From assembly GCA_018806915.1 (NCBI GenBank), contig JAGKQI010000059.1, positions 1,488,001 through 1,552,000 on the forward strand: a stretch of 64,000 nt of DNA, in the 5' to 3' direction. Made by a program: the position numbers and the translations under genes. The notes below the pieces were generated by a model. That model did no database searches. It was not told the DNA's origin and was given only the letters and a program-made list of their open reading frames with translations. Positions 541-54,113 of this stretch are shown here, one piece after another (the stretch's first letter is position 1; each line of letters starts with the position of its first letter). This DNA comes from Phytophthora colocasiae. Lineage: Eukaryota; Oomycota; Peronosporomycetes; Peronosporales; Peronosporaceae.

Positions 541-2979
541 CCCAACTGCCCTCTGCGAAAAGAGCGCGCCGGCCAGAATGGCCGCAACCCTGTCGCGGGT
601 CCCGCTTTGAGCTCTGCCCAGGGAAACGCCGGTTCCCAGTAGACGCGGGGTGGTCTACTGGGGAAGAACGGAGTTCTGCAGTGCGTGAGAGGCACTGGGG
701 CTCAGCCCCGAAGAGCTCCGTGCTCTTTAACACGGAACGTGTGAGCAAGCAGGGCTTGCTGGTCGTCCAAGTGGACGTGAAGGGCTTTGAGAAGCCGTGG
801 ATCGTGTTGATCGATTCGGGAGCGTCTGGCAACTACGTCAGACGCTCCACCGTTGAGGGTAGTCAGCAATATACTGAGGCGCTTCGAGCGCGAAGAGGTG
901 ACACAGTCACTGTCCGTCTAGCGACGAGCGTCCGTGTCACGGCGGCCAAGGTCCCTATGGACCTGCGGCTGAAGTTCCTGGACTTCGATAGCGTGGAACG
1001 CTGCTTGGTCCTGGACCTGGATTTGAGGTACGACCTCATCCTTGGCATGGCGTGGCTGGAGCGCCACGAGCCATGGATCGATTGGAGGTCGAAGACCTTA
1101 GGTGCTACGCACTTCTCTCCTAGTGGAGCTTTGGCGAGTCATGAAACCACCTCTGCTAGGAAGCAGAAGGGCTGTTGGCGCGAGCATCGAGCCGAGTCGG
1201 CTATGATGCTGGAAGTCGGTGTGTCCGAGTTAGTGGACAGCACCGAGTGCGAGGACCGCAGTCCTGTTGAGCGCGTAGCGATGGCTGACAGTGAGTCAAC
1301 GTGTGGGCAAAGCTCACGTAACCCCTGTGGAGCGGCACGTACTCCGTCGAGTGATACTGGTCGTGGACCAAGTCGATCGCTGAGTGTCTCTGACACTGGA
1401 CCTGGTACGGTCATTCATTGTGCAGCGGCACGTACTCCGTTGAGCGGCGTCGGTCGTCGACCGAGTGGATCGCTGAGTGTCACTGACACTGGGCCTGAAG
1501 GGGCCGAAACCTGTGCGGCGGCACGTACTCCGTCTAGTGACGTCGGCGGTAGACCGAGTCAGTCACTGAGTGTCACTGACACTGGGCCGGGCAAGGCCAA
1601 AACCTGTGCGGCGGCACGTACTCCGTCGAGTGGACGTTTGTCGGCTAGGCGACGACGTCGTAAGGCCCTATGGGCGAGACGCTCTGCGTCTGAGTCGTCT
1701 GTGACATCAAGAGTCAACGCACAGGAGAGCTGTGGGCAGCTATATACTCTGGTCGATGGAGTGGACGGCAGTGCCGAAGGCAGAGTCCGGCTGGACAGAC
1801 TGCCGAGTGTCGACAAACTCCTTGAGTTAGAGGAGATGTCATTCGCCGACTTTGGCGATGCCCTGAAGGCTGGCGAACTCGCCGAGGTGGTCATCGTTCG
1901 ACCTGAAGAAGAGTTAAACTCATCGTCCGTCGTGGACGAGTCCGTCTTGACCAGGGTCAAGAAGGCGTTGAACGCCAGGAGTGGATCGGAGATCCTCAAG
2001 AATCCCTTGGATCCCTTCTACTCCTTGATGAAGGAATATGGAGACGTTGTCTCGAAGGAACCACCGAGTGGCCCGCCTCCAGACCGAGGCGTGCGTCATG
2101 AGATCGACTTAGTTCCCGGAACTAAATACTGCGTAACCCGACAGTGGCCTCTTCCCAAAGAGCAATGCGACGTCATTGACGCCTTCTTCCGTGCGAAGCA
2201 CGCTGCGGGTCTTGTGCGCGAGAGCAAGTCTCCGCACTCCGCACTCCGCACCAACATTCTGTGTCAGAAAGCCGAATGGCAAATGGCGTATCGTTCACGC
2301 TTTCAATAAGCTTAACGCTGCCACGATTCCGGCACAGACGCCGATTCCTAGGAAGGATGTTCTTCAGAACAACATGGTGGGCTGCACCATGTATAGTGCG
2401 CTCGACTTAGTCGATGGCTACTATCAGCTGCTCATGCGAGCCAGTGACATCCCGCTTACAGCGGTGAGCACCCTGAGCGGTATGCTCTGGGAGTGGCTCG
2501 TAATGCCCCAAGGGCTCTCGAACGCGCCCGCGACGTTCAATCGTCTAGTGACGCAACTGTTCCGCCCCCTACGGGCATTCGCACAGACGTATTTTGATGA
2601 CGTTTTCGTCCACAGTCAGGCCGAACACGGCAAGACTGACGTCGAGGTGCACGTGGAACACGTGAGAGCGGTGCTCGAGTGCATGCGCACGAACAAGTTG
2701 TACGCCAACGCCGACAAGTGCGTCTTTGGCGCGGAAGAAATCCCTTTCCTAGGGTGCTTCATTGGGAAGCATGGCCTTCGTGCTGATCCAGCAAAGGTCA
2801 AGGCCATTGTGGACTGGCCGGTTCCCTTGAACCATAAGGACTTACGTAAGTGGCTTGGCTTGGCCAACTACTTGCACAAGTACAGCGAGAACTACGCTGA
2901 GTTGGCTCGGCCACTCTCGGATCTCCTTAAGAAGGATACCGGTTGAGTATGGCGTGATGAGCACGAGAGTGCGTTCACT
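541..2979 (+). pseudogene. pol: Family A Gypsy protease-reverse transcriptase remnant (copy A1)
   Basis: Polyprotein fragment of a Ty3/Gypsy retrotransposon. A retropepsin-like protease has its catalytic motif LIDSGAS near 809-829 and the second conserved motif LILGMAWL near 1036. A repeat-rich linker follows, then reverse transcriptase from about 2080, with WPLPKEQ, PTFCVRKPNGKWRIVHAFN, the substrate-positioning MPQGLSNAPATFN and the catalytic YFDDVFVHS near 2590. Three lesions are visible: a 7-bp tandem duplication near 2231-2251 shifts the frame between SPHSA and PTFCV; a TGA at 2944-2946 replaces an expected Trp codon after KKDTG; and the element is cut in the RNase H lead-in (VWRDEHESAFT) by the LTR at 2980. 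RNase H and integrase are absent. Confidence 0.88.
1326..1637 (+). repeat. 93-bp in-frame tandem repeat in family A pol linker
   Basis: Units start at 1326, 1419, 1512 and 1605, so the period is exactly 93 bp (31 codons) for about 3.3 copies. Each unit encodes a variant of CAAARTPSS...SLSVTDTGP. It lies between protease and RT, and unit length and phase keep the reading frame. Each unit carries the palindrome AGTGTCACTGACACT or a one-base variant. Confidence 0.9.
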
Positions 2980-3437
2980 TGATGGGTCTGCTTAGACCTA
3001 TTAGGTGGCGTACACGTGCGCTTACGTGTATGAGGAAGCGTGCAATTAGAATAGACTTAATTTAAGTATACTTATTTAAATAAGTATAATTAAATCAAAT
3101 ATAACTAAATTAAACTGCAAAATACCGTAAAATGAGAACTGTTATTGAATTTGGCATAAGCCAATTATGGACCTCCTAAAACTGTTTGTTATCTATTTCT
3201 AAAGGGTCTGCCAACGTGTGGTTGGCAGAAACTCTGCTCAGTGATTGGTAGAAATCCGTTACTTTCTACCAATAATATGCACAAATGCACACGAACCATC
3301 CAAATATGTGGTTCGCCCATGTATCCATTGGTGTGTACAGCACACCAAGGTCTGAGGCCCATTTCCAACCTCTAACAGTTATCCTAACTGTTAGAGTTAC
3401 AAGTGGTACAACCACTTGTACGTGTAACCCCGTTACA
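2980..3437 (-). repeat. Family A LTR, minus orientation (3' LTR)
   Basis: Read on the minus strand it starts TGTAACGGGGTTACACG and ends GGTCTAAGCAGACCCATCA, 458 bp, homologous along its length to the LTR at 29184-29643. A polypurine tract abuts its minus-strand start, so it is the 3' LTR of the minus-sense element to its right. Its left end lies inside copy A1, which it truncates. No target duplication can be tested because the partner LTR is missing. Confidence 0.85.
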
Positions 3438-3450
3438 CCATCCCCCCGTT
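3438..3450 (-). promoter_or_regulatory. Polypurine tract of family A
   Basis: On the minus strand AACGGGGGGATGG directly precedes the LTR start TGTAACGGGG. Such a tract primes plus-strand DNA synthesis in LTR retrotransposons. It fixes the sense direction of this element as minus and shows that the ORF at 3539-5083 is antisense. Confidence 0.75.
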
Positions 3451-3538: not shown

Positions 3539-5083
3539 ATGAACTCGCCAACGCCCACGTCTCCGTCCGCTTCTGCGGACGCGCAAGCCTCACCTGCTGC
3601 CTCTGCAGCAGGAACAACGACTTCAGCAGTGCCCACTAGCACTGCTGCTTCCAGCGGTCCGACAGAGAAGCTCTCTGTCACCATGTACCATGCTCTCCAT
3701 AAGGAGAAACATGAGAAGAAGACTTCTTCTTCTTCTCTAGCAGAGATTAAGAATCCTGCTGTCCCTCTCAAAGAACTCTTTGGAGAGGACTACGAAGACA
3801 TCCTCGACTACGAGGATGTCGAGGAGGGGGAGGTTGATGTCAAGGCTCCCGCTCCCGTGTCTTCGTCCGAAGACACGCCCAACCCACCCGTGGGGTCTCG
3901 ACGACCTCGTGTTGAGGTCTCGGACGCTTCAAGCTCGAAGCGTCCGCGCAGTGATGGCGAAGCGTCCCCCATGTCGAGGGCGCTCACTGCACCGCGCACT
4001 GATCCGCCAGTGCGCACGCCATGGATGCCTACTGAGGCGGAGATCCATGACCGGTTCGGTGCTAGTTCACCACCGAACCCGATACTGTTGTACTCATGCA
4101 ACAGTATCAACGACGACGATGTCGCCGCTAAGGTTGTCTTTGAGTCCGAGACTCAAAGACGCGACTACTATATCGGGCTCTTTCACGAGCTCCGATACTA
4201 TGCAGCGAAGAAGACTTCGCGCAAGAGCAAAGTGCCAGAGTGGCAGGCACTTTGTCAGTCGTGGAACGCCTTTGTTGAAAACTTCAACAAAGACCCGAAG
4301 GCATATCGCGATCGCGTTGCTGCGGCTCGCGATCGCTACTACACTTACACTACACGTTGTAAGTGTGAACGCCTCCATGATCAGTCCATGGAAGCGGGGA
4401 TCCCATGTGCCGTTCCCTTTGGCACACCCTGTCCGTGTTGCCCACCCTTGGCAACACGCCTTACCGAAAGTGATCTCCTGGGGTACACGGTCGTCCGTGT
4501 ACCCGATCACATCAAGGAGCTCCGTGGTCGTATTGTGCCACGCGAAGCTCCGAGTGCTGTGGCTGACCGCAGCACTCCTCGTGCAGGGTTTACCCCTGCA
4601 AGTTATGGTGGGCTTCGTACGCCCTCACCATTTCCGGAACGTCCTCCATCAGGACGTTCCGCGGCTCCCATGTATCTCGATGGGGAGGAAATCCTCTCCA
4701 ACGAATACGAAAACGAACCCCTTGAGAGTTCGTTCTCTTACGAGCCACAATCCGCTCAACAATCCAGCGGATCGCTCCACGCGCGTCGCGCAACGGCGGC
4801 GGAGGGGGTGGGAACACTCCCTCCGCATGGTCAACGCTATGACCATGACGATCGTGCCCTGCACGATCGAGTTGCTGCGCTGGAGCAGACACAGAGCGCT
4901 GAGATAGCTGCTCTGAAGCAGGAGGTTCGTGTCCTCCGTGCTGAGGTCTGCGAGGCAGCTCAGACTGCCTCGAACCTCTCGTCCGGTCTTGGGACGAGAG
5001 TGAACCGGTTGATCGACCGTGTCGACGGTCTCGAGAAGGCCTTCCAGGCCTCTCGCACTCCTCAGTCGGACTACCAACCCTAG
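3539..5083 (+). CDS. Antisense ORF between pol and 3' LTR of family A (514 aa)
   Basis: An uninterrupted 514-codon ORF runs opposite to its element's gag-pol, starting about 100 bp from the 3' LTR and ending inside the integrase/chromodomain gene, which it overlaps by 494 bp. I do not recognise a named family. Visible order: a Ser/Ala/Pro/Thr-rich N terminus (1-45), an acidic stretch (EDYEDILDYEDVEEGEVDV, ~82-100), a likely nuclear signal (SSSKRPRSDGE), a globular centre (~165-290) with YYIGLFHELRYYAAKK and a Cys cluster (TRCKCERLH, CAVPFGTPCPCC), and a C-terminal coiled coil (AALEQTQSAEIAALKQEVR). The DNA is tiled with short perfect hairpins. The lack of stops, in a window where most coding regions are broken, suggests it was coding until recently. 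Expression from the 3' LTR is inferred. Confidence 0.7.
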   Translation: MNSPTPTSPSASADAQASPAASAAGTTTSAVPTSTAASSGPTEKLSVTMYHALHKEKHEKKTSSSSLAEIKNPAVPLKELFGEDYEDILDYEDVEEGEVDVKAPAPVSSSEDTPNPPVGSRRPRVEVSDASSSKRPRSDGEASPMSRALTAPRTDPPVRTPWMPTEAEIHDRFGASSPPNPILLYSCNSINDDDVAAKVVFESETQRRDYYIGLFHELRYYAAKKTSRKSKVPEWQALCQSWNAFVENFNKDPKAYRDRVAAARDRYYTYTTRCKCERLHDQSMEAGIPCAVPFGTPCPCCPPLATRLTESDLLGYTVVRVPDHIKELRGRIVPREAPSAVADRSTPRAGFTPASYGGLRTPSPFPERPPSGRSAAPMYLDGEEILSNEYENEPLESSFSYEPQSAQQSSGSLHARRATAAEGVGTLPPHGQRYDHDDRALHDRVAALEQTQSAEIAALKQEVRVLRAEVCEAAQTASNLSSGLGTRVNRLIDRVDGLEKAFQASRTPQSDYQP

Positions 5084-5465
5084 GTAGTCCGTGCTGCACG
5101 TACGGCTTCAACCGCCCGACGTAGAAGGTCGGGTGTAGCCTCATGCTGGACGGTATGTCCAGCCGGTACGCGTTACCATGCCGTTCAAGTACTTTGAACG
5201 GCCCAATGAATCTTGGAGCAAGCTTGCTTGCTCCAAAGTCAGACACTGCATGTTTAGGCAGGTTTTGTGTAGCTAACAAAACTAATGAACCCTTTTCGAA
5301 TTCATTTATGTTGCCCCTACCAACATTATCAGCGTTCAGCTTCTGTCGATCGACAGAAGCTGCGATAGCATCCTGGACAAACCGTATGACGGCTTGTCTT
5401 CGCTGGACAAAGTCTAGCGCACCCGAGCTGAATCCATTCAGCTTGTCGCCCTTGTCAGCAGCAGG
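4590..5465 (-). pseudogene. pol: Family A integrase C terminus with chromodomain
   Basis: The 3' end of a minus-sense Gypsy pol. It starts in the integrase C-terminal part (AVIRFVQDAIAASVDRQKLN), continues through the GPY/F-type module (FIGPFKVLERHGNAYRLD, HPTFYVGRLKPY), then a Pro/Arg/Ser-rich linker, and ends in a chromodomain (IVERIVARKRTNSQGVRF, IRWRGFPPHRDTWEP), which usually steers integration to chromatin marks. The stop is at 4590. The reading frame stays open to 5519, but bases right of about 5465 belong to the family B element, so the upstream part of pol is lost. Its last 494 bp are shared with the antisense ORF on the other strand. Confidence 0.85.
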
Positions 5466-7018
5466 CTCATATACACACCTGGTTCCAATTCCAGTTCTTC
5501 GTCCGAGACCTTCATACATTGTTCATACTCCATTCGTAACTTTTCCTCCGGCGTTCCTGGCATCCCCTGAATAGGGATACCCATGACTCATCTATCAGGT
5601 CTAACTCGTCTGTGGGTGACTCAGAAGTCTGAGGATCATCTCGGAGCACTCAGATTCTGAGTCTAGAACATCGACACTAGAGTTAACAGAGTTGCCACCA
5701 GAGCCTTTGTGCGAAACACTTACAGAGAACGTTTCCAGATCTCTGGTGTCTGTACTGACGTCCATGCTGCCCGTTGTTTTACTGCAACAACCATCCTTCG
5801 TCTGGGTGGATGCATCCAAGGCGAAACGTACTCGCTTCACGGCTGGTGGTGAGTCCGGTTTCACAAACTGCACCCGAGCGTTGTCAAACCTAGGACGTTG
5901 CAGTATCTCAGTCGGCCATGGGTAGTCTGGTCGATCTACACATGGGGGTTGCGGTATTAGGGCTTCTGATTCCGCCTCCCGTTTCATACGCCTCTTAGTT
6001 TCTGGTGACGGGGTACTTTCCAGAATCAAAACTTCCCAGTCGCGATACGCAGCAGAACCTGGACGTACAAAACGTCCATGTCTCGGAAAGAAACCATATT
6101 CTACGATCCTCGCGACATCAGAGAGCTCGTTTACCCAAGTGTTCTTATCAGAAATGTTAACCACGCGAACCGCCACAGACCACGAGCGAGCAGCATAGAT
6201 CAACTGTGTAACCCAGCGATCACCACGCCCAGCTCACACGACTTCCCGTTGCGGGTTAGTCGGTCCATAGTCAATCCTGACAACAAACTCTTCACCAAGG
6301 CTCAGGAGGACAGCCTCGCTCGGTCTGACAGACCTGTTACGACCTATATGGTCACCAGGTTCCCAATTACACATCATTACAACCACTTCGTCTGGTAACG
6401 ACACCAGACCCTCTCGAGCACTAATCCTCACTCCAGCGGCAAACGTGAAACTCATTCCCAGAAGCACATCAATCCCTTCACCGATATTCGCGACCCAAAC
6501 ATCCACAATATACACCACTCTTGGTCCAAGCGTCAACTTGATCTCGGCGCTGGCACCGATGTATGTAGGAACACCACCCATCCCTGATACCTTGGTGTGT
6601 TTATGCGACTTGAGTCTGAGTCCGAGCTTACGCGAAAAGTCGTAACTCAGAATATTTATCGTCGCACCCGTATCCAAGAGAATCTTGGTCCGATGATCGT
6701 TTACGGCACCATGCACCATCACCACATCTCGCTTTGAACGATCAGGGTAATTATCTTCCCACCAACCATAGCATTCGCCATTCTTCAGTCTGAACGACAC
6801 TGTATCATCCGGAGTCAAGTCGGCGTTTTCAGAGATTTCAGGCAACTTATTCCTTGAATATCCAGAAGGTATGGCTGATTCCTGGGCAAAAGTAGTCATG
6901 TATTGTTGGTTGTTATCTTGAGTCTTTCTCAGCTCCGGTCCTACACACACTAGAACACATAACTCTGGGATATTGCCTTGCCCGGCGCGTTTCGGATCCC
7001 CATCCGACGGGCACATTA
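5465..7018 (-). pseudogene. pol: Family B protease and pol N-terminal region (copy B-D)
   Basis: This is the start of the pol frame of a minus-sense family B Gypsy, matching 44673-46250 on the plus strand. It opens at the frameshift site (PSDGDPKRAGQG), contains a protease with ILLDTGATINILSYDF and DVLLGMSFTF, then a linker including VRVVNISDKNTW and RHGRFVRPGSAAYRDWEVL. One frame runs from 7016 to 5601 with a single nonsense codon at 6234-6236, a TGA where the paralogue has Trp (TNPQREVVW). After the TAG at 5601 homology continues in another frame to about 5465 (the ELELEPGVY region). The RT itself is missing; the break abuts the family A integrase. Confidence 0.85.
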
Positions 7019-20499: not shown

Positions 20500-22197
20500 T
20501 CTTAGCGTTTAATAAAACTTGGTCACCGACCTTAAATTCCCACACATTGGCTCTTCCTTTTTCATCAGCTTGTTCCTTTTGAACATCTTGGCTTTCAGCC
20601 ATCACGTCACGCACACGGCGTAATACGCTCAATCTCACCGAGAGGAAGTCATCGACTTGTTTACGCACGGCAAGAGGGCTGATATCAGCAAGCTCGGAGT
20701 CGAGCGACTGCACAACCTCTCCCCCACTAAGCCCGAGGCCACCACGTGGCGGAGTAAGCGGGACGCGCGGATGCGCAAGGCCGTTCACATAGAACGGGGT
20801 GAAGCCTGTTGAGGCATGCACCGCATTGTTTATTGAGAACTCAACGAGAGGAAGCATAGGCTTCGGCGTTTCAGCGCATACGCTGCGGAGGATGTCCTCC
20901 AGGACGCGATTCACGCGCTAAGTCTGACCATCGGTCTGCGGATGATCCGCCGTGGACATGTCCAGTCGAGTGCCAAGCACATTAAAGACGGACGTCCAGA
21001 AGTGATCCGTAAAACGGGGATCTCGATCCGAGACAATGGTCTCTAGCAGCCCAAGCTGGCGGAAGACCCGGTCGATAAAGATCGTCGCTGTACCAGCGCC
21101 ATCGACGGTGTCCGGCACAGCCGCTAGGTGAGCCATCTTGCTCAGACGGTCAACAAAGACCACAACGCCCGTGTTGCCTGCCGTATCCTTCGGCAGGCCA
21201 AACACAAAGTCCATACGGACTGCCACCACCCAGAGGGTACAGGCAAGCTTGTCAAAGGCGCCGCCGCATGCGGCGAGGGTTTAACCCTCTGACACGCCTC
21301 GCACGTGTGCACGTATGTGCTGACCCACTTGTACATCTTCGGCCACCTGTACATGGAGCTCACCGAGCCGTAGGTCTTCTCGCGACCGAGGTGGCCGCTT
21401 GTGGGCGTGTCGTGGGCATCATAGAGGATACGATACTTCAAGTCCTCATCGTGAGGAACCGCCACGCGTGGTGGGTCATCCTGACCCGTGCTGTAGTACA
21501 GCAGACCGCCTTCCAGGCTATAGCGCTGGAGTCTCGCCTTTAGGCGTCGTGACAGAGTCACCTTTGAGTCCTTAAACTCATCGCTCCCTAGAGCTTGAAG
21601 CAGCGCGACACAAGAGTCGTCCTGAGCGTACGCTGCTCGAACCATGTCCGTCACGGACGATGTCACCGACGTGACATGAGATAACTCATAGTCCGGGCGA
21701 CGCGATAATGCGTCGGCGAGGACGTTCTGCCTGCCAGGCTTGTACTTCACCTCGAAGTTAAACTCCGCAAAGAAGGAGAGCCATCGGGCCAACCTCTGCG
21801 AGAGGTGAGGCGACTGCGTCGCTGTGCGTAGTGACGCATGATTCGTGTAGATCACGAACGGCTTGGAGCCGAGCAGGTGAACCCTGAATTTGACGAGAGC
21901 GTACATCATCGCAAGTAGCTCCTTGTCATGAACTGGATAGTTCTTCTCAGCAGCCTTAAGCTGACGAGACTCAAACGCGATAACGCGTTCGCGCCCTTCG
22001 GCGTCCGCTTGCAACAAAGCACTGCCGATGGCAAAGTCCGAGGCGTCACAGACGACGATGAACGGACGATCAGGGTCTGGCAACGCCAGTATCGGTGCCT
22101 GAACCAGGCTATCCTTGATGCGAGTGAACGCACTCTCGTGCTCAGCACGCCATACCCAACCGGTATCCTTCTCAAGGAGATCCGAGAGGCCTTTAGC
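20500..22197 (-). pseudogene. pol: Family A RNase H-integrase segment (copy A-E)
   Basis: Minus-sense pol from the RT/RNase H connection to the integrase C terminus. RNase H shows VVCDASDFAIGSALLQ, FESRQLKAAEKNYPVHDKEL and TNHASLRTA. Integrase shows the HHCC zinc module (YDAHDTPTSGHLGR, CEACQRVK), then the DDE core in other frames (MDFVFGLPKD, VSDRDPRFTDHFW, TADHPQTDGQTN-like) and VEFSINNAVHASTGFTPFYV. There is a frameshift near 21200 and a stop at 20918. It is truncated at 20499 (KVGDQVLLNAK) by the B2 LTR. An internal deletion near 22197 joins it directly to gag. Confidence 0.87.
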
Positions 22198-22631
22198 TCG
22201 CCCCAGGTGGGGAAGGCCGCTTCCACCGACGTCCCAGACGTCAAAGCCCATTCTCGTGCTCGGCCTTCGAACTTAGAGATGGCAAACGCCACGCGTTGTC
22301 CCTCCAACTGGAGCATAGCGGCCCCCATGGCCATTTCGACCTCTCGGGTCCACAGCAGGAGTTTCTCCCCCTCCTGCCTGTGGAAGGTCTTCACGCTGAG
22401 CGTGACGGGCTTAGCTCTCGGAGCGGGGGTAACCCCTTTTACATTCCGTTGAATGTGCTCAACGAGAGCGTTCTCGTACGAGGCAAATGCCTCGAGGCGC
22501 GCGTTGACGGCCTCCGGCCCTTGAAACGCAAGGTGCGCCATACCTTCCTGGCCCAGCAAGGACGTAAGCTTATTAAGCGTGTCCCGATGACTCGGAGTCA
22601 AGTGAGCGTATGCTTCTGGCTCCATTGTCAC
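22198..22631 (-). pseudogene. gag: Family A gag N-terminal part (copy A-E)
   Basis: The start at 22631 (MTMEPEAYAHLTPSHRD) leads to the gag core (EGEKLLLWTREVEMAMGAAM, AISKFEGRAREWALTSG). It stops matching gag at about GELK (near 22197), where the RNase H region follows. Gag C terminus, protease and RT are therefore missing, which makes this copy non-autonomous. Confidence 0.82.
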
Positions 22632-22662
22632 AGAGAAACAGTCTTCAACTCAGGAGTTGGAT

Positions 22663-22680
22663 GGACTACAAGTGCTACCA
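22663..22680 (-). promoter_or_regulatory. Primer-binding site, family A copy A-E
   Basis: On the minus strand TGGTAGCACTTGTAGTCC begins two bases after the LTR end. It is the same site, one T shorter, as at 29646. Confidence 0.7.
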
Positions 22681-22682
22681 GG

Positions 22683-23095
22683 TGCAGTGGGGCTGCGTAG
22701 GTGTGCACCGCACAGAGGAAGTTTAGTTGACTCGTAGAGTCCTGCTTGCAAGGCACTAGCCTTCGGTTCTATACAAGAACCAAGTCGTCCACTAAATACG
22801 TGACTGTCACTATTAGTGTCCCTATAATAAAAGGACTAACACTAATTATGTAAAATGCAAACTGATTTTTATTGATTTTATTGCCCTAATCCTAAATGTA
22901 ACGGATTTAGTATCTAGCATACTAAATCCTAATCAAAATGCAATGTGACCATCTACGTATCTACTCGTGTGTGCCACACTATTATGTACCCACATAAATG
23001 TATCCATGAGTGTCACACACCATTATGTACCCACATAAATGTATCCACGTGTGTCACACACCAACGAGAAACATTCGTGTAACATCCCCGTTACA
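22683..23095 (-). repeat. Family A LTR subtype (413 bp), 5' LTR of copy A-E
   Basis: On the minus strand it runs from TGTAACGGGGATGTTACACG to ...CCCACTGCA, followed by CC and the primer-binding site. It interrupts the integrase of the element to its right just after PNDSD (23096). It contains three near-copies of a GTGTCACACACCA motif between 22970 and 23065. Confidence 0.82.
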
Positions 23096-24050
23096 GGAGG
23101 TCAGAATCATTCGGAACGGCAATGCGATCCGCATTGTCGTCTACTGCACTGTACAACAATAGGCCTTTGTGTACACGATAGCGGCACGAGCTCGAAGATG
23201 AGGGGTTAGCTTCCGACGTGGCACGTCGGAAGGTGCTGCGAGGAACTCCAGCAGCTCCTTCGCGCCTGCATCCTTTGCATACGCGTTATTCACGTCGTCA
23301 ACGTTGATTGACGACGGCACACTTGTCCTCACGACGCCAACGCAGTTGGCGTCGACCGTCTCCGCATAGTCGGGTCGACGCGATAACGCATCAGCCACTA
23401 CATTGAGTCTTTCGGGTTTGTCCACCCGGAAGTTGTACTCCGCGAAGAAGGACAACCATCTGGCCATACGTTGCAAGATGTGCGGCGACTTAATCGCCGT
23501 ACGCAATGATGCGTGGTCTGTATTGACCACGAACGGTCTACTCCCAAGTAGATACACTCGGAACTTTGCGAGTGCATACTTCATGGCAAGGAGCTCCTTA
23601 TCATGTACGGGATAGTTACGCTCAGCTGGCTTCAGCCGACGCGATTGATAGTAGACTACACGATCACGTCCTTCGTGATCGTGCTGCATCAATGCACATC
23701 CGATTGCAAAGTCGGATGCATCGCACACTACGTGGATTGGACGATTTTGGTCCGCCACGGACAAGATCGGCGCTTCAGTCAAGACCTGCTTGACTGCACC
23801 GAATGCCTCCTCGCACTCGGTCGTCCAAATCCACTCAGCTTCTTTTTTAAGAAGCTGGCGAATCTTGCACGCATAGTTCTCCACGTACTTGCACAAGTAC
23901 GTGGCAAGCCCAAGGAACTGCCTCCGTTCCTTCACAATGGATGACGTAGGCCACTCATTGATCACTCTGACCTTCTCTGGGTTAGGGCGCACGCCGTCTT
24001 TCCCCACGAGACACCCCAGCACGGGTATCTCGCTCGCCCCGAAGATGCAC
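23096..24050 (-). pseudogene. pol: Family A RNase H region (copy A-F)
   Basis: Continuation of the minus-sense element beginning at 27583. Visible: LGCLVGKDGVRPNPEKV (RT thumb), VVCDASDFAIGCALMQ with the catalytic Asp, RNYPVHDKELLAMKYALAKF, NTDHASLRTAIKSP and ALSRRPDYAE. The frame breaks near 23190, but sequence readable as VHKGLLLYSAVDDNADRIAV continues to the LTR at 23095. It is separated from its RT by an LTR fragment at 24052-24390. Confidence 0.87.
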
Positions 24051-24051
24051 T

Positions 24052-24390
24052 TCTGTTGTGAATTCGGTGAAACTTTGGTCGCGGAGCAGGGGCGTATAGT
24101 GAACCCTAGTTATACGACTACTGAAAAGTGGTTTTCAGAGCCGTAAAGCGGTAGGTTGGCGTGTGGTACCTTGCGGTATCCTCGCGGGTTTGTTGTCTTC
24201 GGAAATATCACCCTCGCCGGAGTCTGAGAGTGTGTTGAGAAGAGAGGTTAAAGTTCCCTTGGAGTCCGGTGTCGAAATTGAGGAAATCCTTCCAGGAATG
24301 TTCGGGAGTCGGAATCTCTGGGAACCAAGTTGGTTTCCAGGAAGTCGGCGGTCGAAAAGAGATTAATACATGAGAGAAATGTTTACTCAT
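24052..24390 (-). repeat. Family B2 LTR end fragment inside family A pol
   Basis: Matches the terminal ~210 bp of the LTR at 19174-20499 in reverse orientation (GTGAAACTTTGGTCGCGGAG...) and then diverges. It lies between RT (ending at LRKLLELM) and RNase H, replacing about ten codons. No clear target duplication is seen, so it may be a recombination patch rather than an integration. Confidence 0.65.
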
Positions 24391-26373
24391 AAGCTCTAGC
24401 AGCTTCCGGAGATACATCTTGTGCATCTCAATGTCCGTCTTACCGTTCACAGCCCGGCTGTGGACGAACACGTCGTCGAAGTAACTCGGTGCGAAGTTGC
24501 GCACCGAGCGCAATAGATACGTCACGCACCTATTGAACGTTGCAGGGCCGTTCTTAAGCCCCTGTTGCATTACGAGCCACTCCCAAAGCATACCGCTTGG
24601 AGTGCTTACCGCTGTGAGAGGGATATCCCTCTCACGCATGAGAATCTGATAGAATCCATCACGCAGATCTAGAGCACTGAAGATAGTGCTCATGGCCATC
24701 GAATCGATGATAACATCTTTTCGCGGTATCGGCGTCTGCGCCGGTATCATCGCATCGTTCAACTTGTTGTACGCATGAACGATGCGCCAAAGTTGTTTCT
24801 TCACACAGAACGTTGGGGCACTGTGCGGGGACTTCGATTCCCGCACTTGACCAGTAAGACGACGACTTTCAAAGAAGTCGTCGATCGCTTGAACTTGTTC
24901 ACGCGGCAGTGGCCACTGCCGTGTAACACAGTACTTAGTGCCCGGCACGAGATACGCCCTTGTCCTTCGGAAGCTCCGAAGGGATCTCGTCCGGGAGTAC
25001 ATCCTTGTACTCCCGCAGAATCTTGTAATAGGGACTCGACTTCAACGAGTCCCAACTCTGCTCCTCGAAGCGCTGCTTCTTGGTCTTCGCACTGAGGGGG
25101 TCATCGCCCTCAGTGATGCCATCGACGACGATCTGCTTCAGCTCTTCGGCTTTGCGATCCACTCTCTCGATATCCGAGAGAATGCACATTTGTTCGATGC
25201 GACCATCGTACAAGTCCCGCGCGAAGCGCTTCCAACTCATCGTTGGAAGTGCGGTCAACGCCGACGCACACGTCGGCGGATTCTCCAACCGCATCCTCTG
25301 GTACTGTAACTCAGTATCAGTACGTGTCAAGACGTTCAACGTCTCGACACTCGGTGTCTGCACTGCAGACACACCCTCCACAGTCACGGACTGGGACTCG
25401 CAAAGCTCTCTGAGCTTGCGCCGCGAAAGTCTGCCATGGAGCTCAGCTCCAGGCGCTTCACGTCCAAGGCGTCTCACCTTGGACTGGACTTTATCGCAAT
25501 CGTCAGCGGATTCCTTCCGCTGACTCGCACAATCAGGCCCGGCTTGTGTGCCGGTCAACACGTGCAGCGCTGCACATGAGCACGCAGGTTGTTCGGGTGC
25601 TGGACGTTTGCAACCGCCAGCCCTCCTGCCTCGCAGTCGGTTCCCTGAACCGCTGCGCCGCCATCCGCTCCTACGGATGAAGTGACCGCATCGTCGACTC
25701 CCGGAGTCGACGTCCTCTCGCTAGCTTCCAGCGCTAGCGAGTGTACGTATCAATCAGCTCCCGGGGCTGATGAACGATCGCTAGTTCCTGGAACTAGCAG
25801 CGAAGCGCCAGCGGCGTCAGCTCCCAGAACCGACGCACGTCTTTCGGTTCCCCGAATTTTATTTTCTTCATTAACTCCCAGAGCTGATGCGACGTCGTCG
25901 GCGCGACCCTTGGGGGCTTGAAGTACCTCCAAGGATGCCGGTAATACCGGTATAATACCTTCTCTCAGGTGAATCGCATTCACCTGACCATCACTCATGT
26001 GACAAACATCATTCAGATGTTTATGCTTCAGGTGATTCACATTCACTTGACCATCACTCATGTGACCGCGACCCTTCAGCTCCGATTTCTGAGTCGACAC
26101 ACATTTTCTATCAACGACTCCCTGAGTCGTTGGCGGTCGCCGGCGGCGATTGGAGGCAGCGTCGGGCGCTGCTGCCTCAACTGGGGGATTACATGCACCG
26201 CCCGGTGCATGTACAGCACTGACAGGGCCATCGCCCTCTGTCGCGCATGTGTTGTTGAAGCGGACGAGCGTACGTCTCTCCCAGCTGATCACCGGGTCAT
26301 GTCGCGGAAGCCATGGCATGCCTATCACTAAGTCGAACTTATCGTCTAGATCCAAGACGATAAGGGCTTCCAC
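24391..26373 (-). pseudogene. pol: Family A protease tail, linker and RT (copy A-F)
   Basis: Minus-sense. From the right: the end of protease (ALIVLDLDDKFDLVIGMPWL), a linker with repeated MSDGQVN segments and the repeated element S-APGAD/SVPGTS, then YYKILREYKDVLPDEIPSEL and RT (CVTRQWPLPREQ, MLWEWLVMQQGLKNGPATFN, catalytic YFDDVFVHS at about 24477). Frameshifts lie near 24950 and 25600. The linker DNA is dense in perfect hairpins. The expected KPNGKW motif is damaged (KKQLWRIVHAYN). Confidence 0.85.
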
Positions 26374-26759
26374 TAACGTCCTCGGTTGTAAGAGAAGCGC
26401 ACATGGACCACACGCTTCTCCCTCCTCACGGTGGCAGCTGTTGCCAACCGCACCTCCAACACGCCGCGAGGCGTGTCGGTCTCTTCGAAGTTAAGTCTTC
26501 GAAGACTTCCCTGTCGAACAAAGTTGATCGACGCGCCCGAGTCCACTAGGGCACGGAGAGAGTTCACTCTCTTCGACATCACGTTCAGGATGACAAGGCC
26601 TGGCTTGTCATCTTGCATCTCGCACCGAGAAACCTTCTCGCTGGGGGCAGCAGCCTTCAATGTCGCGTGTCCGAGTTCGACACGCGAGACTGCATTACCT
26701 GTAGGACACCCCGCGCCTACTGGTCCTTGGCGTTTTTTGAACGCCCGCCCGCCATGCAC
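26373..26759 (-). CDS. pol: Family A protease ORF (copy A-F)
   Basis: A 128-codon segment in the -1 frame relative to gag, entered through the A AAA AAC site at 26738-26732. It carries the retropepsin active-site motif ALVDSGASINFVRQ near residue 72. The protein is identical to the copy at 30605-30991 on the other strand. A stop at 26373 separates it from the DLVIGMPWL half of the protease, which continues in the next ORF. The same stop occurs in the inverted copy. Confidence 0.82.
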   Translation of the reverse strand: MHGGRAFKKRQGPVGAGCPTGNAVSRVELGHATLKAAAPSEKVSRCEMQDDKPGLVILNVMSKRVNSLRALVDSGASINFVRQGSLRRLNFEETDTPRGVLEVRLATAATVRREKRVVHVRFSYNRGR

Positions 26760-27583
26760 TCGTGTGCATAGTGACCGATGTTACCGCACTTGTAACATCG
26801 AACCTTTCCGTTCTTACGCTGCTGTTGACCAGAAGTCGTAGCACTCGAGAGGTCCATAGGGTTAGGACCTCCCGTCTTCACAACAGGACTCGCCGGCTTC
26901 AGCGCGTTCGCATGGAGTTTAGCTTGACGTCGGCTAAACTCCTCTTGCATCGCAAGGCTGATCGCCTCCTCGAGAGTATTTGGATACTCTCGGAAGAGAT
27001 ATGTTTTGACGGGACCATCTCTTAGTCCCTTCATGAACGTGACGACCTTGGTCGCCTCGTCGATCGGGTTGGCCACTATGTTCGATACTAAGTATCGAGC
27101 ACGCTGGGCAAAGGTGTGAACATCATCCTTGCCCTGCTGCAGATCGAGAAACTCCGCTCTCGATCTGAACTCGTTCTTCGGAGGCCCAAACGCAAGCTTG
27201 AGTTCCTCCTTGAACTCCTCGTACGTGCTGAAGCACGTAGGATCCGAGAGTCGGCGCCCATAGGCCCAACTCCTCCCACGTCCACCAAGGCATGACATTT
27301 CGAACGCGACCTTCGACATCGGGTCGACGATACGTCGAGCCCCAACGGCTGTGTCAAGTTCGACAAGCCAGCGAAGGAGGGTCTCGTCCTCCTTCCCCGT
27401 ATAGATACTCACGTGGAGTTTCAACGACTCCACGCGTGGCTTCGGAGAAGCCACCGAGGCAGCAACATCTCGTTGCTCCTTAACAATGTACCCCAGAGCA
27501 ACACCGTGTTGCTCTGTCGGCGATAGCGTACGAAGCATCGTCGCTACCGCTGCCTCTCCAATGACTTGCGAAAGTGTGGGCAC
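26717..27583 (-). CDS. gag: Family A Gag, 288 aa (copy A-F)
   Basis: An intact ORF for the structural protein that forms the retrotransposon particle. Gag core: KLHVSIYTGKEDETLLRWLV, FEMSCLGGRGRSWAYGRRL, FKEELKLAFGPPKNEFRSR. One zinc knuckle of CX2CX4HX4C form, CYKCGNIGHYAHEC, lies near the C terminus. It ends with TAG 15 nt beyond the A AAA AAC slippery site. It is identical in protein sequence to 29781-30647 on the plus strand. Confidence 0.9.
   Translation of the reverse strand: MPTLSQVIGEAAVATMLRTLSPTEQHGVALGYIVKEQRDVAASVASPKPRVESLKLHVSIYTGKEDETLLRWLVELDTAVGARRIVDPMSKVAFEMSCLGGRGRSWAYGRRLSDPTCFSTYEEFKEELKLAFGPPKNEFRSRAEFLDLQQGKDDVHTFAQRARYLVSNIVANPIDEATKVVTFMKGLRDGPVKTYLFREYPNTLEEAISLAMQEEFSRRQAKLHANALKPASPVVKTGGPNPMDLSSATTSGQQQRKNGKVRCYKCGNIGHYAHECMAGGRSKNAKDQ
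26732..26738 (-). promoter_or_regulatory. Putative -1 frameshift heptamer A AAA AAC, family A
   Basis: AAAAAAC on the minus strand lies in gag register as A|AAA|AAC. The protease frame is the -1 frame across it. The inverted copy is at 30626-30632. A weak GTAGG/CCTAC stem follows downstream. Confidence 0.65.
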
Positions 27584-27720
27584 AGTCCGTGCGCGTCACG
27601 GACATGTGTGGGGTCCCAGTGGATCCCTGATCCATTGGGGAGTTCTCGACCCCGCGTTCGTATGACTCCATACGAACGAATTGCAGTCGGTCGTGGGACG
27701 GACTACAAAGTGCTACCAGG

Positions 27721-27964
27721 TGTAATAGGTCTGCTTAGACCTATTAGGTGGCGTACACGTGCGCTTACGTGTATGAGGAAGCGTGCAAGTAGAATAGACT
27801 TAATTTAAGTATACTTATTTAAATAATTATAATTAAATCAAATATAACTAAATTAACTGCAAAATACCGAAAAAAATGAGAACTGTTATTGAATTTGGCA
27901 CAAAGTCAATTATCGGACCTCCTAAAACTGTTTAATCGATTTCTAAAGGGTCTGCCAACGTGTG
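27721..27964 (-). repeat. Family A LTR, 3' portion (copy A-F)
   Basis: Matches the last ~244 bp of the LTR at 29184-29643 in inverted orientation and is the inner end of the left arm of the large inverted repeat. The remainder of the LTR is disrupted by an unrelated ~80 bp stretch at 27965-28048. Confidence 0.85.
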
Positions 27965-28188
27965 GGTGACCTCCCTTCCATCAAACAGTATGCAGCCTCA
28001 CTTCGGGATGACAGCCACTCCTTGCCCTTCTTCGCCAGGAAAGGTGTAGGTTGGCAGAATCGACATTGTAACGGGGTTATACGTACAAGTACACCACTTG
28101 TAACTCTAACAATTGCGATAACTGTTAGAGGTTGGAAACGGGCCTCAAACCTTAGTGTGCTGTACACACCAATGGCGAACCCCATTGG
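27965..28188. repeat. Scrambled family A LTR pieces in the inverted-repeat spacer
   Basis: About 80 bp of unassigned sequence, then TTGGCAGAA and from 28067 a plus-oriented LTR start (TGTAACGGGGTTATACGTAC) that fades near 28188. It opposes the minus-oriented LTR portion just to its left. Confidence 0.6.
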
Positions 28189-29183
28189 CATAATGCTATT
28201 TCCGATTTTCGAGCGACAGGTGGACTTTACGTTACTATGTGATTGGTTATAGTATGGATTATAAGCGAAAGGGGTTTGTGGGACGCGGTCGCACCCGTGT
28301 GACGTCTATGGAAAATTATGGATAAACCTTCGCCTGACTGTAAAGGGACCCAAAGGACCAGAAGTGTACTTCAGAAGTGTGCACAACTCTGAAGGTCAAA
28401 TGCATTCTGTCTGGTCACCAGACTTTCCCCGACGATGAGTGCCTAAGTTCTGGCGGAAAGTCTCTCAGAAGAACGTATCTCTGAGAGACCTCATCCCGTT
28501 ACCGTCCAGCGCGACGATTGATGGTTCAAGGATTCACAATATTCCGCAGAGACCAGGTATCGCGCGCCGGACGCCGTGCACCCGCACAACCCTCAAGATC
28601 TTCATGTACGTTGAAGCATTGGTGCTCCGTACTCTGGTATTCAACTCAAGACTCTGGTATTTCCTGCTCTGGATGACTAAGACTCTGAGAACCAAAGTGT
28701 TTTCAGACTCTGAAAACCAGGATACCAGACTCTGAAACCAACGAAGATCCAAGACCATACTGAAACCAAGTGAACCCAAGTTCAAGTCACGTATTCAAGT
28801 GATGACTAACCTGCACATCTCCCGTAATGACGCCTTTTCCGATCCACTCATCAAGATCTGCTGCACAGACTGCATATTGAAACCAAGTCAAGACACCTGA
28901 TACATACAAGGACCAAGTGTACCTGAGATACGAAGACTGACTGCATGAAGAACGCTAAGGACGACAAGAAGAAGAGAGTTACCAGAGATATATGAGAGTT
29001 ATGAGAAAGATAAAAAATAAACAGAGTTCAATTCGCTTGCTACTGCACAAGTCCGCTTGAGAGGTATTCAGGCCACTGCGTCCAATACGTACGTCGTGTG
29101 ATCTCCACCAAATTCAATCCCCTTAGGTGGAGATCAGGTAACGTAGAGACCTGAAAGGACCCGCCTATTCCATATCCTAGTTG
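28189..29183 (+). repeat. Partial family B2 LTR
   Basis: Closely matches the 5' ~1 kb of the LTR at 19174-20499 from ATGCTATTTCCGATTTTCG, with a deletion near 28622 relative to it (the AGACTCTGGTATTTCC block follows sooner). It is cut off at 29183 by a family A LTR. Confidence 0.75.
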
Positions 29184-29643
29184 TGTAACGGGGTTACACG
29201 TACAAGTGGCTACACCACTTGTAACTCTAACAGTTGCGATAACTGTAACAGGTTGGAAAGGGACCTCAAACCTTGGTGTGCTGTACACACCAGTGGCTAC
29301 ATAGGCGAACCACAGCATTGGGTGGTTCGTGTGCATTTGTGCATGTTATTGGTAGAAAGCAATGGATTTCTACCAATCATGGAGAAGAGTTTCTGCCAGC
29401 ACACGTTGGCAGACCCTTTAGAAATCGATTAAACAGTTTTAGGAGGTCCGATAATTGACTTTGTGCCAAATTCAATAACAGTTCTCATTTTTTTCGGTAT
29501 TTTGCAGTTAATTTAGTTATATTTGATTTAATTATAATTATTTAAATAAGTATACTTAAATTAAGTCTATTCTACTTGCACGCTTCCTCATACACGTAAG
29601 CGCACGTGTACGCCACCTAATAGGTCTAAGCAGACCTATTACA
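29184..29643 (+). repeat. Family A LTR, complete (5' LTR of copy A-G)
   Basis: Starts TGTAACGGGGTTACACG, ends AGACCTATTACA, 460 bp, and is followed by CC and the primer-binding site. It is a chain of perfect hairpins, for example 29348-29358 with 29367-29377 (11-bp arms). Confidence 0.88.
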
Positions 29644-29645
29644 CC

Positions 29646-29664
29646 TGGTAGCACTTTGTAGTCC
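29646..29664 (+). promoter_or_regulatory. Primer-binding site, family A
   Basis: TGGTAGCACTTTGTAGTCC starts two bases after the LTR. It would pair with a tRNA ending ...GGACTACAAAGTGCTACCA. I cannot name the tRNA from sequence alone. Confidence 0.7.
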
Positions 29665-29780
29665 GTCCCACGACCGACTGCAATTCGTTCGTATGGAGTC
29701 ATACGAACGCGGGGTCGAGAACTCCCCAATGGATCAGGGATCCACTGGGACCCCACACATGTCCGTGACGCGCACGGACT

Positions 29781-30647
29781 GTGCCCACACTTTCGCAAGT
29801 CATTGGAGAGGCAGCGGTAGCGACGATGCTTCGTACGCTATCGCCGACAGAGCAACACGGTGTTGCTCTGGGGTACATTGTTAAGGAGCAACGAGATGTT
29901 GCTGCCTCGGTGGCTTCTCCGAAGCCACGCGTGGAGTCGTTGAAACTCCACGTGAGTATCTATACGGGGAAGGAGGACGAGACCCTCCTTCGCTGGCTTG
30001 TCGAACTTGACACAGCCGTTGGGGCTCGACGTATCGTCGACCCGATGTCGAAGGTCGCGTTCGAAATGTCATGCCTTGGTGGACGTGGGAGGAGTTGGGC
30101 CTATGGGCGCCGACTCTCGGATCCTACGTGCTTCAGCACGTACGAGGAGTTCAAGGAGGAACTCAAGCTTGCGTTTGGGCCTCCGAAGAACGAGTTCAGA
30201 TCGAGAGCGGAGTTTCTCGATCTGCAGCAGGGCAAGGATGATGTTCACACCTTTGCCCAGCGTGCTCGATACTTAGTATCGAACATAGTGGCCAACCCGA
30301 TCGACGAGGCGACCAAGGTCGTCACGTTCATGAAGGGACTAAGAGATGGTCCCGTCAAAACATATCTCTTCCGAGAGTATCCAAATACTCTCGAGGAGGC
30401 GATCAGCCTTGCGATGCAAGAGGAGTTTAGCCGACGTCAAGCTAAACTCCATGCGAACGCGCTGAAGCCGGCGAGTCCTGTTGTGAAGACGGGAGGTCCT
30501 AACCCTATGGACCTCTCGAGTGCTACGACTTCTGGTCAACAGCAGCGTAAGAACGGAAAGGTTCGATGTTACAAGTGCGGTAACATCGGTCACTATGCAC
30601 ACGAGTGCATGGCGGGCGGGCGTTCAAAAAACGCCAAGGACCAGTAG
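29781..30647 (+). CDS. gag: Family A Gag, 288 aa (copy A-G)
   Basis: An intact ORF 137 bp after its own 5' LTR. The gag core and the single zinc knuckle CYKCGNIGHYAHEC are as in the inverted copy at 26717-27583, with identical protein sequence. The A AAA AAC site at 30626-30632 sits in register and the stop TAG is at 30645-30647. Because LTR, primer-binding site, gag and frameshift site are all present and unbroken, this is the best-preserved 5' end of family A in the window. Confidence 0.9.
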   Translation: MPTLSQVIGEAAVATMLRTLSPTEQHGVALGYIVKEQRDVAASVASPKPRVESLKLHVSIYTGKEDETLLRWLVELDTAVGARRIVDPMSKVAFEMSCLGGRGRSWAYGRRLSDPTCFSTYEEFKEELKLAFGPPKNEFRSRAEFLDLQQGKDDVHTFAQRARYLVSNIVANPIDEATKVVTFMKGLRDGPVKTYLFREYPNTLEEAISLAMQEEFSRRQAKLHANALKPASPVVKTGGPNPMDLSSATTSGQQQRKNGKVRCYKCGNIGHYAHECMAGGRSKNAKDQ

Positions 30648-31389
30648 GCGCGGGGTGTCCTACAGGTAATGCAGTCTCGCGTGTCGAACTCGGACACGCG
30701 ACATTGAAGGCTGCTGCCCCCAGCGAGAAGGTTTCTCGGTGCGAGATGCAAGATGACAAGCCAGGCCTTGTCATCCTGAACGTGATGTCGAAGAGAGTGA
30801 ACTCTCTCCGTGCCCTAGTGGACTCGGGCGCGTCGATCAACTTTGTTCGACAGGGAAGTCTTCGAAGACTTAACTTCGAAGAGACCGACACGCCTCGCGG
30901 CGTGTTGGAGGTGCGGTTGGCAACAGCTGCCACCGTGAGGAGGGAGAAGCGTGTGGTCCATGTGCGCTTCTCTTACAACCGAGGACGTTAGTGGAAGCCC
31001 TTATCGTCTTGGATCTAGACGATAAGTTCGACTTAGTGATAGGCATGCCATGGCTTCCGCGACATGACCCGGTGATCAGCTGGGAGAGACGTACGCTCGT
31101 CCGCTTCAACAACACATGCGCGACAGAGGGCGATGGCCCTGTCAGTGCTGTACATGCACCGGGCGGTGCATGTAATCCCCCAGTTGAGGCAGCAGCGCCC
31201 GACGCTGCCTCCAATCGCCGCCGGCGACCGCCAACGACTCAGGGAGTCGTTGAGAGAAAATGTGTGTCGACTCAGAAATCTGAGCCGAAGGGTCGCGGTC
31301 ACATGAGTGATGGTCAAGTGAATGTGAATCACCTGAAGCATAAACATCTGAATGATGTTTGTCACATGAGTGATGGTCAGGTGAATGTG
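30605..31389 (+). pseudogene. pol: Family A protease, truncated (copy A-G)
   Basis: Protease in the -1 frame (active site ALVDSGASINFVRQ), TAG at 30989-30991, then the second half (VLDLDDKFDLVIGMPWLPRH) and the start of the linker (repeated MSDGQVNV). It ends at 31389 where an LTR-like sequence begins. RT, RNase H and integrase are absent. Confidence 0.85.
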
Positions 31390-54058: not shown

Positions 54059-54099
54059 GATGCTCAGTTTGGAGAAAGTTCCGCACTGACGAATTATGA

Positions 54100-54113
54100 C
54101 CAGGAGGGGCGGT
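54100..54113 (+). promoter_or_regulatory. Polypurine tract, family B
   Basis: AGGAGGGGCGG lies immediately before the 3' LTR start TGACACG, confirming plus as the sense strand. The same tract is at 19160-19173. Confidence 0.7.

Follow-up and report, generated by a model that had tools for sequence, protein, structure and literature searches.

A window of 64,000 nt from the genome of the oomycete Phytophthora colocasiae (contig JAGKQI010000059.1, positions 1,488,001 to 1,552,000 of the forward strand; "the window" refers to this whole stretch throughout) carries three copies of a Ty3/gypsy chromodomain long terminal repeat (LTR) retrotransposon, hereafter family A, whose genes and ends alike are tiled with short perfect hairpins. 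Variants shared among copies of this family are strongly depleted in the hairpin arms, and the arms are protected at silent sites no less strongly than at coding sites. We consider the chances somewhat better than even that family A is selected, along the whole element, to fold into short perfect hairpins on both strands, perhaps shielding these strands from annealing.

Perfect hairpins are concentrated in one retrotransposon family

Hairpins were defined as perfect Watson-Crick arms of at least 8 bp enclosing loops of 3–12 nt, counted without overlap. The window contained 124 such hairpins, and 49 when arms of at least 10 bp were required; the corresponding counts in three dinucleotide shuffles were 7, 11 and 7, and 1, 0 and 0. 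The three family A copies (9,596 nt) accounted for 96 of the 124 (10 per kb, or about one perfect hairpin every 60–120 nt), while the remaining 54,404 nt held 28 (0.51 per kb). All 15 inverted repeats that had been listed by eye in the original prediction were recovered at the positions given there, with arms, where a length had been stated, either of that length or 1 bp longer (9-bp arms at 4434-4458 for the repeat at 4435-4457, and 11-bp arms at 4635-4661 for that at 4636-4660). The features of family A and of the related sequences around it are as follows.

2982..3438, minus strand: 3' LTR of family A copy 1 (a minus-strand copy), 91% identical to 29183-29639 in inverted orientation; tiled, with hairpins at 3067-3088, 3207-3229, 3244-3273, 3328-3348, 3370-3396 and 3398-3420 (hairpin scan)
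3539..5083, plus strand: predicted antisense gene of copy 1, 514 amino acids, placed between the 3' LTR and pol, beginning near the LTR and overlapping the end of pol; 23 hairpins
4081..4660, no strand assigned: stretch described in the original prediction, with repeats some 50 bp apart; seven of its seven listed hairpins found, including the five said to have arms of at least 10 bp
4590..5522, minus strand: C-terminal part of copy 1 pol, with integrase SH3_Tf2-1 and Chromo domains (PF24626, PF00385)
23141..27967, minus strand: family A copy 2, 40 hairpins (Pfam, LTR match, hairpin count); LTR end, gag 27595-26717, protease open reading frame (ORF) 26490-25750, reverse transcriptase (RT) 25041-24208 and RNase H 24109-23141, all on the minus strand
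29183..31410, plus strand: family A copy 3, truncated, 20 hairpins (LTR match, Pfam, hairpin count); 5' LTR 29183-29639, gag 29769-30647 and protease ORF 30874-31410, all on the plus strand
600..2946, plus strand: related element, untiled, 3 hairpins in 2.35 kb (RT identity, hairpin count)
21101..22700, minus strand: second related element (RNase H, integrase zinc-binding domain), untiled, 1 hairpin
19448-19477, 28460-28489, 34559-34588, 38921-38950 and 54407-54436: GTCTCTCAGA...TCTGAGAGAC hairpin recurring in repeats of a different family; it makes up 5 of the 28 that lie outside family A (hairpin scan)

The assignment of family A follows from its gene order (gag, aspartic protease, RT, RNase H), with Pfam matches to Retrotrans_gag, Ty3_capsid, RVP_2, RVT_1 and RT_RNaseH, and from the integrase C-terminal SH3 domain and chromodomain, both above cut-off in copy 1 at 5522-4590 (59.6 bits for PF24626 and 44.8 bits for PF00385). 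The protease match was weak (RVP_2, 19.8 and 20.6 bits against a cut-off of 20.3). Of the two LTRs listed above, the one in copy 1 lies 3' of the internal region and the one in copy 3 lies 5' of it. Among the best 120 of 627 matches, gag homologues were 63–93% identical and those with a species name were all from Phytophthora, the best being a 93% identical protein of Phytophthora citrophthora; a single scan of IMG/VR with the RT protein gave no relative. Copies were sought in this one genome (an assembly of 92.5 Mb in 105 contigs), where at least 40 places matched much of the 5' part of family A (40 of 797 candidates scored).

To separate pairing from coding, synonymous codons were permuted within each ORF (mean of 40 shuffles). 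Five family A coding pieces carried 6–16 hairpins per kb compared with 0.2–0.7 per kb after these codon-preserving shuffles: gag had 10 hairpins versus 0.28, two pol pieces 47 versus 1.30 and 17 versus 0.45, the RT piece of window copy 2 had 5 versus 0.17, and the antisense ORF 23 versus 1.15. Other ORFs of the window stayed near the shuffled level, including piggyBac (0 versus 0.17), two other Gypsy ORFs (2 versus 0.55 at 45856-48885 and 0 versus 0.23 at 56390-57727) and, at 51890-54127, an ORF from a repeat of uncertain type (0 versus 0.25). The codon and dinucleotide shuffles together exclude codon usage or G+C content as an artefactual cause of the tiling. The original prediction that tiling is limited to family A, that codon choice is bent to maintain it and that the other families are ordinary in this respect agrees with the window scan, the codon shuffles and the comparison of copies with their flanks (below). 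It had also placed a hairpin at 819-848 in a family A protease; the repeat is present, but its host is the related, untiled element at 600..2946 and not family A proper, and the ORF that holds it (174-2309) had 2 hairpins versus 0.33 after codon shuffling. This single plus-strand frame contains both a DDE_1 transposase match and a protease match of retroviral type, and is perhaps a chimera from a nested insertion.

Copies elsewhere in the genome were also tiled. In a set of 28 further copies with a median pairwise identity of 96.5% (30 loci, from which L001 and L002 were removed because they are those of the window), the LTR-gag-protease stretch held 26–33 hairpins per 2.2 kb in all 28, and 56 hairpins in 3.7 kb were common to at least half of the copies. 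The outer 1.5-kb flank held 0–3 hairpins in 26 of the 28, indicating that the tiling is bounded by the element. The exceptions were L008 (12 hairpins), whose flank includes part of another copy, and L024 (5 hairpins).

Hairpin arms are conserved at silent and coding sites

Variants among the 28 copies were compared between arms, loops, 3-nt flanks and other sites, after 644 of 4364 alignment columns, those with gaps in more than half of the rows, had been dropped. Single-copy variants, which are probably for the most part post-insertion mutations, occurred at 0.163 per site in arms, 0.167 in loops, 0.169 in flanks and 0.172 elsewhere (arm versus other, p 0.54). Variants present in at least four copies, by contrast, fell at only 9 of 1006 arm sites, compared with 33 of 287 loop sites, 26 of 319 flank sites and 108 of 2108 other sites (arm versus other, p 1e-10; arm versus loop, p 4e-15). 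Given that shared variants are depleted in arms and single-copy variants are not, the pairing constraint acts during element replication and not through later repair; repair after insertion is excluded by the equal rates of single-copy variants in arms and outside.

The depletion was seen at third codon positions, where it was strongest, and at first and second positions. At third positions, variants in at least three copies occurred at 2 of 278 arm sites, 15 of 80 loop sites and 87 of 658 sites outside (arm versus outside, p 5e-12), and at first and second positions together at 8 of 544, 21 of 164 and 59 of 1323 sites, respectively. The rate in loops at first and second positions is itself high, so that loops may coincide with variable parts of the protein or be prone to mutation. 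When hairpins were defined from any single copy, third-position variants still affected 0.8% of arm sites versus 12.5% outside, and in 300 circular shifts of the hairpin positions the lowest value was 4.9% versus 0.7% observed, which speaks against ascertainment by common hairpins as the source of the effect.

Stems are short, and folding energy is extreme

An arm-length survey of 8,161 nt of family A, allowing loops of up to 30 nt, gave 41 arms of 7 bp compared with 9.0 in shuffles, 36 of 8 bp (2.3), 45 of 9 bp (0.5), 24 of 10 bp (0.4) and 10 of 11 bp (0). The mode of stem length was thus 9 bp and stems were usually of 8–10 bp, unlike those of the L045 family (a strongly folded relative described below), where the excess simply fell from 6 bp upward. 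Loops were mostly of 3–7 nt. Longer arms were lower in G+C (rho -0.25, p 0.004, n 139), and the outermost pair was G-C or C-G in 83 of 108 stems, both of which agree with a threshold of stability. Hairpins showed no clear preference for a codon register (12, 16 and 18), and no regular spacing (median gaps 18–34, range 0–250) or loop motif (no loop sequence was present more than 4 times among 108 stems) was evident, in either case judged without a formal test. Hairpins in the pol linker (aligned columns 2332-2630) form a degenerate array around CTC-[CT]GG-GAG cores, with gaps that differ between copies; several of the spacings between their centres are multiples of 9 nt (54, 36, 27 and 45), and others are not.

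Minimum folding energy difference (MFED), calculated in 240-nt windows against dinucleotide shuffles, was 40.0, 37.4, 36.4 and 31.9% on the sense strand of four family A pieces (lowest single window, 15.8%) and 39–50% on the antisense strand of the same pieces. Codon shuffling of two pol pieces gave similar sense values (34.7 and 30.7%). Two pieces of the L045 family reached 29.6 and 26.7%, and five other sequences 1.9–13.8%, the highest of these being the untiled yet moderately folded element at 600..2946 (13.8%). Hepatitis C virus (HCV) and three other sets of structured viruses have values of 7.7–12.0%, obtained with a comparable procedure that used another shuffling program (PMC7566573), so that family A lies at about three times the highest of these values. 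The difference in energy between sense and antisense folding was left out of the evidence, because base composition alone moves its baseline.

G-U pairs are not favoured in family A stems

A need to fold the sense RNA alone would predict better tolerance of G-U pairs than of other mismatches. Mismatches were counted in relaxed stems that had at least 8 pairs and were shared by half or more of the 28 copies. G.T, which on the sense RNA would be a G-U wobble, was found at 12 positions (9 stems), compared with 28 (21 stems) for A.C, 16 for A.G and 15 for C.T (excess of A.C relative to G.T, p 0.006 counting positions and p 0.017 counting stems); in single-copy pieces of the family the counts were 23 stems for G.T, 38 for A.C, 23 for A.G and 15 for C.T. 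A stricter rule, in which a single mismatch had to be flanked by three pairs on each side, gave 7 for G.T, 6 for A.C and 9 for others, and shared variants in a wider set of copies (columns filled in fewer than 8 rows dropped) gave 19 for G.T and 17 for A.C. Shared changes in arms, relative to elsewhere, were reduced to 0.33 when G.T-giving and to 0.38 when A.C-giving (1006 arm versus 2714 other sites), and the first mismatch beyond the stem showed no excess of G.T (7 of 56, versus 7.2 expected). The consistent result across these tests was only the lack of a preference for G.T. As G-U is no better tolerated than A-C, exact complementarity, which is equal on both strands, seems to be what matters. 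The selected state would then be the folding of both strands, namely genomic RNA together with either an antisense transcript or minus-strand cDNA.

A predicted antisense gene lies within the tiled region

The original prediction treated 3539-5083 as family A coding DNA. The stretch does appear to be coding, but in antisense to family A pol. The frame was open in six of six copies compared (478–551 codons from stop to stop, some bounded by the sampled stretch), and its variable columns were distributed 12:16:37 over the three codon positions (third-position excess, p 2e-4). The protein had 504 homologues at E<=1 (7999 best candidates scored); the best 120 of these were 43–87% identical, and those named came exclusively from Phytophthora, with 11 species represented (P. 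citrophthora, oleae, idaei, cactorum, cinnamomi, sojae, ramorum, fragariae, nicotianae, megakarya and palmivora). On sequence grounds, 3539-5083 is a conserved antisense gene that is kept as protein across copies and species, which would make family A an LTR retrotransposon with ambisense coding. The protein gave only sub-threshold Pfam matches (ANG-1 at 17.3 bits, cut-off 28.5) and no sequence match in PDB, and its predicted structure, of low confidence (mean predicted local distance difference test score, 57), would be helical in its central part, with a long helix at the C terminus.

A long antisense ORF also occupies the corresponding place in the L045 family, with 432 and 351 codons in the same frame in adjoining stretches of C47 (L065 705-2000 and L045 1-1053, plus strand). 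An hmmsearch comparison found it to be dissimilar to the antisense protein of family A.

Tiling is graded among related families

We sampled 20 Gypsy loci picked via the SH3_Tf2-1 domain. Fifteen of these, ten of them copies of one family, held 0–1 hairpins per 2.7 kb, and the other five (L048, L034, L044, L045 and L046) held 5, 8, 9, 12 and 13, respectively. These five were the best BLASTP matches of family A at the integrase end (37–58% amino acid identity by aligned length, versus 30–35% for the others). One strongly folded family, here the L045 family, is represented by two copies (L045 and L046). L034, L044 and L048 had 6, 8 and 3 hairpins compared with 0.40, 0.55 and 0.65 in codon shuffles, and showed little folding overall. 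The related element at 600..2946 has an RT 69% identical to that of family A (72% at the nucleotide level over 373 nt of RT) and 79% identical to that of the L045 family. Tiling is thus a graded trait among related families, strongest in family A and weaker in its nearest kin.

Hairpins of L044 were largely retained in its relatives (90% of pairs in L034 and 75% in L048), much of which is expected from DNA identities of 83% and 79%. Double changes affected 5 of 60 pairs between L044 and L048 and 2 of 51 between L044 and L034, figures that come without a chance expectation. In 809 hairpin comparisons with gag proteins of other species (120 of the 627 homologues), the loss from substitutions in arm codons was 0.66 pairs compared with 1.06 under the null, and amino acid identity was 0.759 in arm codons and 0.762 elsewhere; the comparisons are non-independent, and this test leans toward a pairing constraint in a suggestive way, not as independent evidence. 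Family A and the L045 family share one identical RT hairpin of 20 nt (L058 1597-1616, and 2485-2506 in the reverse complement of L059), although the aligned proteins are 45% identical over 667 codons; it is a candidate conserved element.

Comparison with known systems

Among the closest parallels to family A is genome-scale ordered RNA structure (GORS), known from positive-strand RNA viruses that include HCV, human pegivirus and foot-and-mouth disease virus. In these an excess of structure extends along coding regions and, in HCV, is lost on synonymous reshuffling (PMC7566573). Family A likewise has an elevated folding energy difference and hairpins abolished by codon-preserving shuffles. It differs in being a retrotransposon and in its short perfect stems, which in this element extend into the LTR and do not favour wobble, whereas GORS is expected to form ordinary helices that tolerate G-U. 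The best reading is that family A represents a short-stem, wobble-poor form of GORS.

The antisense gene recalls the antisense ORFs of plant Gypsy elements (Grande, RIRE2 and Retand), which likewise lie between pol and the 3' LTR and are conserved across species, and can be likened to retroviral antisense genes such as HBZ (PMC11963269 for both). The family A protein differs in lacking TRP28 and any above-cut-off Pfam match, in overlapping the end of pol and in belonging to a hairpin-tiled element. Chronos is, like family A, a chromodomain Ty3/Gypsy element of Phytophthora (PMC5348765); family A differs in that Pfam scans of copy 2 pieces gave no additional RNase H of a different type, and the words hairpin and antisense are absent from the main text of the Chronos paper. 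Judged by titles and the openings of abstracts, none of the open-access papers among the matches listed describes hairpin-tiled retrotransposon coding regions.

Alternative explanations

The original prediction offered selection on RNA structure or repeated template switching as causes of the tiling. In the latter, the nascent strand folds back and copies itself during reverse transcription, making and re-perfecting quasi-palindromes without any selection for structure. Exact Watson-Crick arms without G-U and freely varying loops, as seen in family A, are what such a process yields, and perfect stems are known to arise by template switching when DNA is replicated (PMC8794818). However, it should change both arms together, in one-step multi-base or double changes that restore pairing, and only 4 pair positions (5 cells) went from one Watson-Crick pair to another in the 28 copies, over which loops varied in at least four copies at 33 of 287 sites. 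The wider set listed 30 double changes, but 26 came from mis-aligned rows that were dropped (22 from L056, which has a deletion there, and 4 from distal L030, where about half of sites differ), leaving 4. Moreover, 6 of 10 listed minor hairpins were one arm base away from the commonest imperfect form (the other 4 lay in the repetitive, gap-rich linker), and single-copy variants stay unrepaired. Arms are conserved and not co-evolving, and covariation between arm partners across copies is nearly absent. The scarcity of double changes and the single-base minor hairpins lead us to reject template switching as the process that maintains the stems, and as an explanation of the tiling we regard it as quite improbable, though it may have created some stems originally.

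Selection on structure was borne out by the depletion of shared arm variants, yet conventional GORS acting on sense RNA only (for stability, packaging, translation pacing or evasion of sensors) appears incomplete. It would account for the extreme MFED of all sampled family A pieces and fits the L045 family, where G.T outnumbers A.C (14 versus 4 stems), but G-U is not favoured on the sense strand of family A by positions or by stems, and arm depletion was about equal for G.T-giving and A.C-giving changes; a sense-only constraint is therefore rather unlikely here. The main alternative reading of the strand symmetry is that hairpins work in single-stranded minus-strand cDNA, where they might protect against nucleases or deaminases or order plus-strand synthesis. 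A sense A.C mismatch is T.G on the minus strand and was the better tolerated class in relaxed stems, and short loops suit DNA hairpins. But the A.C excess is modest, disappearing under the stricter rule and in the wider set, and we know of no deaminase pressure in oomycetes, which makes this role on its own very doubtful. Dispersed packaging signals, with each stem-loop bound by Gag, would likewise give many scattered stem-loops of like size; nevertheless, loops have the highest rate of shared variants and the most frequent loop sequence is found just 4 times among 108 stems, and we consider this extremely unlikely.

Several observations also weigh against selection for folding of both strands. 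The A.C excess is not firm. Identical-base mismatches, which comprise four of the sixteen base combinations, were surprisingly frequent in relaxed stems, at 58 positions compared with 12–28 for the other classes. In the L045 family (G.T 14, A.C 4, A.G 11 and C.T 1), the argument from both strands does not carry over despite the long antisense ORF, and most family A hairpins lie at places non-homologous to those of that family (Watson-Crick pairing 0.35–0.44 versus 0.14–0.39 in slid controls). Support within family A comes from conservation, compensatory changes being nearly absent; the copies share ancestry, which makes shared variants non-independent; and in the LTR alone the depletion had the same direction but was not significant (2 of 134 versus 13 of 304 sites, p 0.17). 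Finally, folding in the cell and the shielding role are both inferred from sequence.

Proposed function and significance

Under selection for element-wide folding of both strands, the nucleic acid in every sampled part (LTR, gag, pol and antisense gene) would be selected for independent short hairpins, whose exact stems would fold sense and antisense strands alike. If the element produces antisense RNA for its antisense gene, the most likely function of such self-folding would be to hinder sense-antisense annealing and targeting by small RNAs. Stems of about 9 bp would be stable and still fall well short of the length of a Dicer substrate. In Phytophthora infestans, small RNAs of both polarities occur along two abundant Gypsy elements (PMC3522703). 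A tentative possibility, which we hold to be less than even, is that strand-symmetric self-folding (wobble-poor stems of about 9 bp every 60–120 nt, with coding on both strands) leaves the two strands unable to anneal easily or to be targeted, and so constitutes a defence against RNA silencing.

Folding of whole genomes is known from RNA viruses. Family A carries about three times the structure of the viruses compared and exists in dozens of copies beside unstructured Gypsy families in one genome, which provides a natural experiment: tiled and untiled families can be compared within one host for age, transcription, small RNAs and silencing. Silent sites in hairpin arms are under constraint no weaker than that on amino acid sites outside the arms, which also matters for the dating of elements and for codon-based tests of selection.

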